Virus record (IMG/VR): IMGVR_UViG_3300032236_001232
Coordinates: 99,948 to 163,947 of that record
Length of the DNA: 64,000 nt
Direction: 5' to 3' (one strand)
Origin: a virus
Shown here piece after piece: positions 256-51,435 of this stretch. Made by a program: the position numbers and the translations under genes. Every line of letters starts with the position of its first letter. Within the stretch, counting starts at the first letter, position 1. Under the pieces are notes generated by a model. The model ran no database searches and was not told where the DNA came from. It was given only the letters and a program-made list of their open reading frames with translations.

Positions 256-885
256 TTATTTTAGACCTTTAATAATTTGAAGGAGACTTTCCTTCAAATA
301 TTTCTGGGCCTTTGGATCTTCTTTCGTTTCTTGTGCAACCTTAAATGCTTTGCTTCCTCCACGAGCATTCATTAAATGTTCGTAAACTGGAGTAGGATAA
401 GCACCGGGAGCACTGGGTTGGGCAACCACATCTACTGTGATAATCTCAAAATCGGATACATGGCCGTTCATGTCGTTGACATTGCCGCTACCACGAGAAC
501 TTACGCCAAGTTTTACACCGCTTTCAAGCATAGTACGAATTAAATTACCCATCGGCGTAGGAAGGATTTTCATCTTTCCATATCCATTGGGACCTTCCAT
601 CCACATATGAGTAATCATATGAGACACACGATCCAAATTCACTTTTAAATCATCGGGATGATCAACTTCGCCTAACACTGAATAACCATTTTGAATCTGA
701 TCATTCAGTGTTTTTACAGCACGTTCAATTTCATCCACTGGATAAACACGTTGGTTGGCATTGCGAATACCGCCTTGGATGGTAATACCTTTTAAGTAAA
801 GATTCTTACCATCCTTGTCGTCGCTTTCCAGAACAATGCCGCTCTGGTCGAAACTTAGATGCTCACGTAGATATGCCAACTTCAT
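256..885 (-). CDS. 21: Prohead core protease, gp21-like
   Basis: This 209-residue protein matches the T4 gp21 prohead protease family, a serine protease that cleaves scaffold and capsid proteins after Glu in short (I/L)-x-E type sites during head maturation. Family landmarks are visible: the conserved His region GEVDHPDD (His about residue 76), the Ser region GVSSRGSG (Ser about 129-130), and a downstream hydrophobic strand with an Asp, ITVDVVAQPSAPGA (Asp about 152). The length is close to T4 gp21 (212 residues). It lies between the core-protein gene and gp22, as in T4. The C-terminal tail is lysine-rich, as expected of a scaffold-bound zymogen. Confidence 0.92.
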   Translation of the reverse strand: MKLAYLREHLSFDQSGIVLESDDKDGKNLYLKGITIQGGIRNANQRVYPVDEIERAVKTLNDQIQNGYSVLGEVDHPDDLKVNLDRVSHMITHMWMEGPNGYGKMKILPTPMGNLIRTMLESGVKLGVSSRGSGNVNDMNGHVSDFEIITVDVVAQPSAPGAYPTPVYEHLMNARGGSKAFKVAQETKEDPKAQKYLKESLLQIIKGLK

Positions 886-48477: not shown

Positions 48478-49347
48478 ATGTCCGAATTAAAAACTCAAAT
48501 CACCTGGTATCTCAACGATTACTGTAAATCAGAATGTAGTTATTGTCCTATTGCTTCAAGGGGAGGTGGGCTGCCTCCTGCTACTGTTGACTACGTTCGT
48601 ATAACCAATCTACTGATAGATCATTACGCTAATCTTGGCAGAACAATAGATTGGACATTTGACGGTGGCGAACCGTTGGATATGGACGGAACAGTGAGGA
48701 TTCTAAAATTATGTAAAGAGGCCAATGGAAATATAGAACTTCGCACAGGTGGTGGGCAATTATGGATGGATTGGTGGGCGGTTGAACCACAGGTTGATCA
48801 ACTGAGATTAAGTTATCATTATTGGCAAAATCCCAGTTTAATAAAATATATTGTAGAACTGTTCTTATCAAAATCAAAACCTATTGATGTTATTGTTCCT
48901 ATTCGTCCTGATTATTTCGATGAAGATCTTGAGCGAGCATTGGCAATAGAGCGCGAGTATAAGTTTGTTGTAAGTAAATCTGTTTTGTATAAAAACGCAA
49001 TGCACGATTCTGGTATATATCCTTATACTGATGATCAGTTAGATATAATACAAGGTCGAAAAGCAGTAGAGCAAAAAATACATTTTCAATCAACTACTTG
49101 GTATGACCGATACAAAGAAAAATACAATAATAATCCAGTTTATACCGGAATGCGTTGTAATGTAGGAATTGAGCGATTAATAATAAACTACCATGGATGG
49201 GTAGCAGGAGGTGATTGTAATAATCAACCTTTAGGAAACATTTGGTCAGAGTGGTGGGCCCCGCCAAAGGAGCCCCAGATATGCTCTATGCAGGCCTGCG
49301 TATCACAGGCCGATCAACAAATTACCAAATTCAAAAACGTTGATTAA
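48478..49347 (+). CDS. Radical SAM protein with extra C-terminal cysteines
   Basis: A 289-residue protein with the radical SAM signature CKSECSYC (Cys16, 20, 23) and FDGGEP (about residue 61). Four more Cys near the C-terminus (227, 247, 269, 274) could hold an auxiliary iron-sulfur cluster, as in SPASM or twitch-type enzymes. The middle contains the acidic/aromatic segment QLWMDWWAVEP. The substrate is unknown. It is the only plus-strand gene between 40 and 64 kb and overlaps the convergent subtilase gene by 17 bases at the 3' ends. It has no clear ribosome site, and AGTAAATA at 48439-48446 might be a late promoter. Confidence 0.82.
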   Translation: MSELKTQITWYLNDYCKSECSYCPIASRGGGLPPATVDYVRITNLLIDHYANLGRTIDWTFDGGEPLDMDGTVRILKLCKEANGNIELRTGGGQLWMDWWAVEPQVDQLRLSYHYWQNPSLIKYIVELFLSKSKPIDVIVPIRPDYFDEDLERALAIEREYKFVVSKSVLYKNAMHDSGIYPYTDDQLDIIQGRKAVEQKIHFQSTTWYDRYKEKYNNNPVYTGMRCNVGIERLIINYHGWVAGGDCNNQPLGNIWSEWWAPPKEPQICSMQACVSQADQQITKFKNVD

Positions 49348-51358
49348 ACATAACACCAGCAACGTTGTCACTAGCACCAACCTGTCCACGATAGTTTTGA
49401 CGATTCTCTACAAATGCCAGAACATTTGAACGGTCTTCATCTTTAAACTTGTAGTAAAGTCCTACTCGTGTTTCGTGAACATCTGCTGCCAGATTTTGAC
49501 GGCTGTTTTGAACAACATTAAAACTGCTGTCTAGTCCTACTGGAGCAGCAACATCTGCCATAGCACGATATACTGATACAGGCTGGTATACCATAAGGCC
49601 TACAGAGTTTTTAGCATCTACCTTGTGCTCTGCACCTACAGTCCAAGTATAGCTAAGAACATTACTGAGGTTGCTAACAGTATCGCTAGAGCTGGCAGCT
49701 AAGGTAACTCCGTGTGTGACATTGGCATAGAAATTGGTCTTGCCAATAGTGCGATCAATTCCAATACCGGTAAAGTATGTTGAGCTCATCTTGTTATCGC
49801 CGCCGCCACTGAAGCTGTTCAGGGCGTTGCCTAGCCAAGTATTGTTCTCTACAAACATACCCGAAGTGAATTTAACATCGGCATAATCATTACGCAGACG
49901 ATAATTCATTTCAATCATACCAGGATTATTCCCTACAAGATTGAAATTGGTATTGCGATAAAGATTAATTTCAAAATCGCCAGACTGATTATGAACATAG
50001 TCGGTATAGTTGTTAAATTGGCTGTAGTTATTACCGGTAGTATATGGCATTGCTGCCTGTGCTACATTAAAATAACTCTGATTATTGTAGGCAGTTAATG
50101 TTTTACCTGGAAGATAAAAATCACGTTGGAAACTGTCAACTACCATAAGACCGCTGACTTTACCTGTGCTAGCACTACCGCTGGTAACCAATACAGGTTG
50201 AACGGCAGTAGTTGTTGGACCGCTGAGCCGACCGGTAGTAGGAATACCCAATGTTCCAAACGGGCGGGTGGCCTTGTCGAGGTCCATTAGTCCTTGGCCA
50301 TACAGTTCCGGTTTGTATCCTGGAAGATTTTTATTAGCCGTAACAAACAGCAGTTGAACAATGTTAGCGCCAGTCATCTGCGGCCACATTTGGTGAATAA
50401 TGGCTACACCACCGCTAATAGCAGGAGCAGCCATTGAAGTCCCAGTCATGTTACTGAATCCGGTGTTGTTCAGGCTGAGTGGAACAGTTGAGCTAATTCC
50501 AGTTCCTGGAGCCAGGAGGTAGAACTGGCTCATACGATACCGGTCCTGACACACATTGGCAACTACTACTTGGCAAAGTGTGGCAGCAGCATTACTACTG
50601 GGTCCCAAGCCGGTATTACTTTGTTCGTTCCAGTTTCCGGCAATAATAACTCGGCCGCCTAATAATAGGTTTCCGCTTTTATCTGTAGCAGTTGCCATTT
50701 GTGCTAGTCCGCCTGACCATGCTGTTCCGTCGTTACCGGCAGCTAGAACCAAGACCATGTTGCCTTTCATAGCATCCACCCATTGTTGGGTATTTGATAC
50801 ACCTGGCAAAGATCCGGTATTGGTATACACAGTGGAATAAACACCGGGAGCAATAAGTTTCGCTCCAATGGTAGCAGCCGATAATGTTGAGCTGAAACTC
50901 ATATTAGCAACATCGGCATTATTGTTATTGGCCCACTGAACACCATTACCTAGAGTAGTGGTAGTGGCTGATCCATTATTGGTAACTTTGCCAATAAGCA
51001 GAGTAGCATCAAATGCTACTCCCTCTACACCAACTCCATTATGTGCTGCGGCAGCAATGCCTGCCACATGGGTGCCGTGTCCGATGTTATCAACAATGCT
51101 GCCACTACCGGAAAAGTCTTGGATTAGTTTAATACGCTTGTCAAATTCGGTATTTTTGGCATCAATACCAGAATCTAAAATAGCAATTACACTGCCTTTA
51201 CCTGTAAATCCACGGCTCCATGCAGTGCTGGCGTTAATGGATTGTAGAGTTCGACTTTTGTAGTATTCGCTAGTTTCCCATACTGACGTTTGGGTCTGAG
51301 CAATCGCTCCTGTTGAAAGAACAAGGGCGATGCTGGCAGCTAATTTTTTGAGTTTCAT
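49331..51358 (-). CDS. Secreted subtilisin-like serine protease with beta-rich C-terminus
   Basis: A 675-residue S8 peptidase. A signal peptide (MKLKKLAASIALVLSTGAIA, cleavage likely after residue 20) leads to the protease domain with Asp62 (LDSGIDA), His94 (GHGTHVAG), Asn209 (AAGND) and Ser308 (GTSMAAP). The C-terminal 230 residues have alternating hydrophobic/aromatic strands and end in Phe (GVMFNQRF), like outer-membrane beta-barrel or autotransporter C-termini. It has a sigma70-type promoter, so it is probably made early in infection. Cargo gene from a bacterial host lineage is likely. All catalytic residues are intact. Confidence 0.9.
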   Translation of the reverse strand: MKLKKLAASIALVLSTGAIAQTQTSVWETSEYYKSRTLQSINASTAWSRGFTGKGSVIAILDSGIDAKNTEFDKRIKLIQDFSGSGSIVDNIGHGTHVAGIAAAAHNGVGVEGVAFDATLLIGKVTNNGSATTTTLGNGVQWANNNNADVANMSFSSTLSAATIGAKLIAPGVYSTVYTNTGSLPGVSNTQQWVDAMKGNMVLVLAAGNDGTAWSGGLAQMATATDKSGNLLLGGRVIIAGNWNEQSNTGLGPSSNAAATLCQVVVANVCQDRYRMSQFYLLAPGTGISSTVPLSLNNTGFSNMTGTSMAAPAISGGVAIIHQMWPQMTGANIVQLLFVTANKNLPGYKPELYGQGLMDLDKATRPFGTLGIPTTGRLSGPTTTAVQPVLVTSGSASTGKVSGLMVVDSFQRDFYLPGKTLTAYNNQSYFNVAQAAMPYTTGNNYSQFNNYTDYVHNQSGDFEINLYRNTNFNLVGNNPGMIEMNYRLRNDYADVKFTSGMFVENNTWLGNALNSFSGGGDNKMSSTYFTGIGIDRTIGKTNFYANVTHGVTLAASSSDTVSNLSNVLSYTWTVGAEHKVDAKNSVGLMVYQPVSVYRAMADVAAPVGLDSSFNVVQNSRQNLAADVHETRVGLYYKFKDEDRSNVLAFVENRQNYRGQVGASDNVAGVMFNQRF

Positions 51359-51406: not shown

Positions 51407-51435
51407 ATTGTAGCAAGAATGTGTGAACAAGTCAA
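51407..51435 (-). promoter_or_regulatory. Sigma70-type promoter for the secreted protease
   Basis: TTGACT (51435-51430), 17-base spacer, TACAAT (51412-51407) on the minus strand, about 48 bases before the protease ATG at 51358, which has AAGGAAC as ribosome site. Confidence 0.8.

Follow-up and report, generated by a model that had tools for sequence, protein, structure and literature searches.

An Exported Subtilase with a Putative Outer-Membrane β-Barrel Domain in a T4-like Jumbo-Phage Lineage

The Protease Gene and Its Genomic Setting

The stretch of DNA analyzed here (the window; 64,000 nucleotides) corresponds to bases 99948-163947 of a virus record of 163,947 bases. It encodes a portal protein, a head maturation protease, baseplate proteins and a late sigma factor, as well as a family B DNA polymerase, a thymidylate synthase, an SbcCD-like nuclease and a virion protein of 4189 amino acids. 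The DNA polymerase is most closely related to that of the Sinorhizobium phage Phosso (469 kb; 50% identity), followed by those of the CBB/GAP32 jumbo phages (about 43%), and the relatives that possess the protease gene described below include contigs of 335, 213 and 201 kb. Hence, the 164-kb virus record is a fragment from a T4-like jumbo-phage lineage.

Between a glycosyltransferase-like gene and MazG/QueE genes, in a region populated by nucleotide and queuosine genes, lies an intact gene for a protease of the S8 family (Table 1). Its dN/dS ratio relative to the nearest relative (L001) is 0.056, in both domains of the encoded protein, and ranges between 0.056 and 0.076 for the closest relatives. 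The gene is under strong purifying selection; a chance open reading frame is therefore ruled out, as it also is by the conservation of the sequence, and the protease gene is real, conserved and selected. A function as the prohead protease was considered as well and rejected; the phage possesses a separate head maturation protease, and the S8 enzyme is consequently not needed for this task. A divergent gene for a radical SAM protein (48478-49347, plus strand) converges on the protease gene, the two 3' ends overlapping by 17 bases; the radical SAM gene is itself variably present in the genomic slot that harbors the protease.

Table 1. Positions of the protease gene, its predicted elements and further features referred to in the text.
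Feature	Position	Strand	Basis or remark
S8 protease gene	49331..51358	minus	intact open reading frame, 675 aa, ATG start
Sec signal peptide, residues ~1-20 (MKLKKLAASIALVLSTGAIA)	51299..51358	minus	by eye from the translation
Subtilisin catalytic domain, residues ~30-365	50264..51271	minus	PF00082 match, invariant residues
C-terminal domain, residues 366-675, putative outer-membrane β-barrel ending in Phe	49331..50263	minus	alternation, homology
Shine-Dalgarno-like AAGGAA	51365..51371 (approximate)	minus	directly 5' of the ATG, read from the sequence
σ70-type promoter TTGACT-17-TACAAT, extended TGn	51407..51435	minus	kept in L001-L003
Terminator-like stem-loop, weak candidate	49351..49379	minus	overlaps the 3' end of the protease gene
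Head maturation protease	256-885		separate gene in the same window
Larger relatives, 1290-1330 aa	L068, L069: 2932-6948; L070: 3061-6951		lipobox, Thr-rich, divergent C-terminal domain

The Catalytic Domain and the Export Signal

An initial reading of the DNA, made from the sequence alone, had proposed an exported, full-length S8 protease with an intact catalytic triad, and both parts of this proposal are borne out. Residues 53-356 match the Peptidase_S8 family of Pfam (PF00082) with an E-value of 1.8e-38 and a score of 133 bits (cut-off 21.8). The catalytic triad is formed by D62, H94 and S308, with N209 as the oxyanion residue; the three triad residues are invariant in an alignment of 16 relatives, and the triad motifs are present in the full-length members of the family. 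The protein thus exhibits the D-H-S triad, in its S8 context, by which peptidase family S8 (subtilases) is recognized.

The proposed signal peptide was likewise confirmed, as judged by eye: it is of the Sec type, with the predicted cut between MKLKKLAASIALVLSTGAIA and QTQ. Loss of this signal among the relatives was looked for and did not occur, since an export signal can be discerned by eye in all relatives whose 5' end is complete. It is of the Sec type in most of them, while the larger proteins of L068-L070 possess a lipobox (LTGC, followed by GGGGGG) and a Thr-rich stretch of several hundred residues ahead of the S8 domain.

The C-Terminal Domain

The same reading had described the C-terminus as outer-membrane-like and ending in Phe, a description that is supported by two properties of this domain of about 310 amino acids. 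The first is a two-residue alternation of hydrophobicity that exceeds that of shuffled sequences (z = 2.5 for the family and 2.6 for the single sequence), a moderate signal that was obtained with a home-made hydrophobicity scale and from which about a dozen candidate strands can be drawn. The corresponding z-scores are -1.2 for the S8 domain, 3.4 for the C-terminal domains of sphingomonad proteins and 1.6 for a known PF03797 barrel; stretches of the 4189-aa virion protein, which served as a tail-fiber control, score about 0 (range -0.7 to 0.6). The second is the C-terminal Phe, found in all full-length relatives, with one further residue following it in a few of them. At the third position from the C-terminus, where the textbook β-signal has an aromatic residue, members of the main clade often have Lys, Gln or Arg.

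Searches for PF03797 gave no match, up to E = 1, in 16 family members, nor in the virus record, and an hhalign comparison of the C-terminal domain with one PF03797 barrel (E = 0.18) did not yield a usable alignment. No credible match to a solved structure was obtained when the PDB was searched with the C-terminal domains. Homology was detected to sphingomonad proteins: the full-length protein aligns collinearly over both domains with an S8 protein encoded on a Sphingomonas plasmid (hhalign; E = 2.9e-28, 530 columns), and the C-terminal domain on its own aligns with a profile of four sphingomonad sequences (probability 90, E = 1.6e-6), at an identity of only about 17%. The domain common to the phage and sphingomonad subtilases is unannotated and was missed by the family libraries searched. 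Judging from the alternation, the terminal Phe and this homology, we suggest that it is a putative outer-membrane β-barrel.

If the C-terminal domain were not a barrel, the enzyme might instead reside in the periplasm or elsewhere in the envelope and cut host defense proteins located there; a signal peptide and S8 activity require no barrel, and the domain matches no barrel family. We consider such an anti-defense protease unlikely in view of the barrel-like alternation, the conserved terminal Phe and the homology to subtilases of the surface type.

Phylogeny and Origin

Two scans of viral contigs revealed relatives of the protease in about 45 uncultivated viral contigs. In a catalytic-domain tree of 41 sequences, for which plasmids provided the bacterial sampling, all phage members of the family form a single clade (support 99/99) that is apart from the S8 proteases of the Bacillus, Moorella and Phosso phages. 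This clade groups, with modest support (93/71), with the sphingomonad proteins, and both together group with proteobacterial autotransporter subtilases (97/92). A long branch (0.79) leads to the phage members, and the acquisition of the S8 gene by phages therefore looks old. Two motif scans of 84,980 genomes, which relied on short family motifs that distant homologues could escape, turned up no close homologue in bacteria, and a recent bacterial donor was rejected on the basis of these scans. The search for a donor among bacterial S8 autotransporters that the sequence-only reading had recommended thus narrowed the origin to Gram-negative surface subtilases, and a recent donor did not emerge from it.

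A match in the record of Pseudomonas phage Y5 (OQ572407.1; L033), which is labeled 'UNVERIFIED', is a GC-rich, EprS-like autotransporter subtilase of 1013 amino acids. It probably represents host chromosome rather than phage DNA and was set aside as a phage relative.

An Optional Gene in a Variable Slot

Of the 14 DNA-polymerase relatives whose downstream sequence extends for 9 kb or more, three carry the S8 gene at the same place; many relatives have kept the flanking genes and are devoid of the S8 gene, and one relative of 331 kb lacks any S8 gene. The slot is occupied in relatives by genes for an epimerase, UDP-glucose/GDP-mannose dehydrogenase, IMP dehydrogenase, GTP cyclohydrolase or Bax1-I, and in one contig (L109) an epimerase gene adjoins the S8 gene. 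The S8 gene is found elsewhere in the L012 lineage, near helicase and primase genes, and beside virion structural genes in L070. The Bax inhibitor-1 family membrane protein is encoded at positions 14813-15508 of L152 (a Pfam match) and, as a look-alike, at 10572-11267 of L132. The slot is variable and the S8 gene a piece of optional cargo, and since only a minority of the close phage relatives carry it, it is not essential to the phage.

The presence of nucleotide-sugar genes among the occupants of the slot mildly favors a role in surface modification. They sit less well with an auxiliary nutrient enzyme, a surface protease that would free peptides from the surroundings or from neighboring cells and thereby feed the infected cell. 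Export of the protease, its status as optional cargo in large environmental phages and the IMP dehydrogenase and GTP cyclohydrolase genes in the slot of relatives would all be compatible with such a function. Beside the S8 gene, however, neither a peptide transporter nor a partner peptidase was noted, and an anchored enzyme would be a poor scavenger, so that we regard this explanation as not very likely.

Promoter and Timing of Expression

The σ70-type promoter with a 17-base spacer that had been proposed upstream of the gene is indeed present. Its position is conserved in the three closest relatives; farther out in the family, for instance in the L006 and L012 lineages, the promoter is not evident. 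The T4-type late promoter TATAAATA occurs three times in the window, in each case just 5' of a gene start, among them that of a baseplate-hub gene; none is found upstream of the S8 gene. Given the σ70-type promoter and the lack of TATAAATA at a gene of a phage in which this element marks other gene starts and that encodes its own late sigma factor, expression of the S8 gene in the early or middle phase of infection is plausible for the window lineage. The early expression originally proposed can be upheld in this weaker form, as early or middle.

These features bear on two further explanations. A role in lysis, with the exported protease weakening the outer membrane or proteins of the envelope as infection ends, would fit the predicted outer-membrane location; the σ70-type promoter in place of a late one, the accessory distribution and the fact that no lysis cassette was recognized beside the S8 gene make it highly improbable. 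A virion-associated or tail protease serving entry, in which the N-terminal hydrophobic segment would be no export signal, finds a precedent in the S8 proteins with Ig-like domains known from large phages (Phosso) and in the virion structural genes neighboring the S8 gene in L070. The conservation of two types of export signal (Sec and lipobox) speaks against it, as do the location of the window-lineage gene among nucleotide and queuosine genes without a late promoter, the many relatives that possess the flanking genes but no S8 gene, and the Phosso protein itself, which has a different architecture and no signal peptide. We deem a virion function improbable.

Proposed Function of the Protease

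We consider it likely that the gene encodes an exported, outer-membrane-anchored surface protease that acts during infection. The build of the protein is well supported, whereas its location, the timing of its synthesis and its substrate are inferred. In the scheme we envision, the protein would be made from a host-type promoter early or in mid-infection and exported by the host Sec pathway, for which the signal peptide is seen in the sequence. Its C-terminal domain would insert into the outer membrane as a β-barrel, so that the subtilisin domain could be presented outside the cell or at the outer membrane and cut surface proteins in the manner of NalP and SphB1. These two bacterial proteases are lipidated, stay on the cell surface for a while and process other proteins located there (PMC9977779, PMC9289746). 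Since the phage enzyme is built like proteases that bacteria display on their outer surface, the carrier viruses probably make the host reshape its own surface during infection.

As to the purpose of such a surface protease, it is possible, and we propose this tentatively, that surface receptors are removed or remodeled, by which rival phages would be kept out (superinfection exclusion) and progeny would not be lost on their own host. We would rank receptor trimming first, nutrient release second and envelope anti-defense third. The initial reading had likewise named superinfection exclusion, and had listed cleavage of competitor proteins and release of nutrients as further uses that the enzyme might have. 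Somewhat more speculative is the suggestion that these proteins form a phage-specific class of minimal, stalkless autotransporter-like subtilases with which jumbo phages shave receptors and exclude competitors by proteolysis.

The known ways in which phages remodel the cell surface involve, for the most part, small lipoproteins, exclusion proteins of the inner membrane and enzymes that modify sugars. A conserved, exported and apparently outer-membrane-anchored protease in a jumbo-phage clade would add proteolysis to these modes and, as a single gene, is accessible to expression in a laboratory strain. The view that jumbo phages alter the surface of their host to fend off rivals has been put forward (PMC7824862); no exported subtilase is found in that account or in the other literature searched, nor did the latter contain a phage-encoded subtilase autotransporter.

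Comparison with Known Subtilase Systems

The S8 proteases of other phages (Bacillus SP-15/BSP14, Moorella MTATph1, Sinorhizobium Phosso; PHROG 3677) have the S8 catalytic domain in common with the protein studied here but belong to separate branches of the tree, and those of the Bacillus phages, SP-15 and Phosso lack a signal peptide as judged by eye. The C-terminal domain was not found in isolate phages. The Phosso enzyme (PV764938.1, 73446-77309; L092) comprises 1287 amino acids with putative Ig domains and probably represents a different, virion-type use of the S8 fold.

Closer in architecture are the sphingomonad proteins annotated as 'S8 family serine peptidase' (Erythrobacter, Sphingosinicella and Sphingomonas plasmids; L074, L077, L075, L078), for which no functional study was found in the literature searched. 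They show the same order of two domains and share motifs of the C-terminal domain with the phage protein; being bacterial, they differ from it in origin, and the Erythrobacter and Sphingosinicella proteins contain, unlike the window protein, a lipobox and a proline-rich linker.

The type Va subtilisin-like autotransporters (NalP, SphB1, EprS, Ssp; group 15 in PMC9289746) resemble the phage protein in their signal peptide, their N-terminal S8 domain and their C-terminal outer-membrane-like domain, and they are near to it in the catalytic-domain tree; the lipobox of some phage members recalls the lipidated NalP and SphB1. In contrast to them, the phage protein is phage-encoded and has no match to the PF03797 translocator. 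Type Va subtilases also possess a β-helix of about 200 amino acids between protease and barrel (PMC9289746), for which the phage protein offers no room: its catalytic domain ends near residue 365, about 310 residues remain, and only some 40 lie between the domains. Further marks of the type Va group are an outer-membrane barrel of 12 strands and display of the passenger at the cell surface; in the phage C-terminal domain, the alternation is significant and allows about a dozen candidate strands to be drawn, and surface display is what we would predict for its S8 domain. Its identification as a classical type Va autotransporter was therefore rejected for want of both the PF03797 domain and the β-helix. 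By analogy, the phage protease probably works like these autotransporters, though on the tests made it is not one of them; surface subtilases as such are known, and it is the phage variant of this kind of enzyme that is new.
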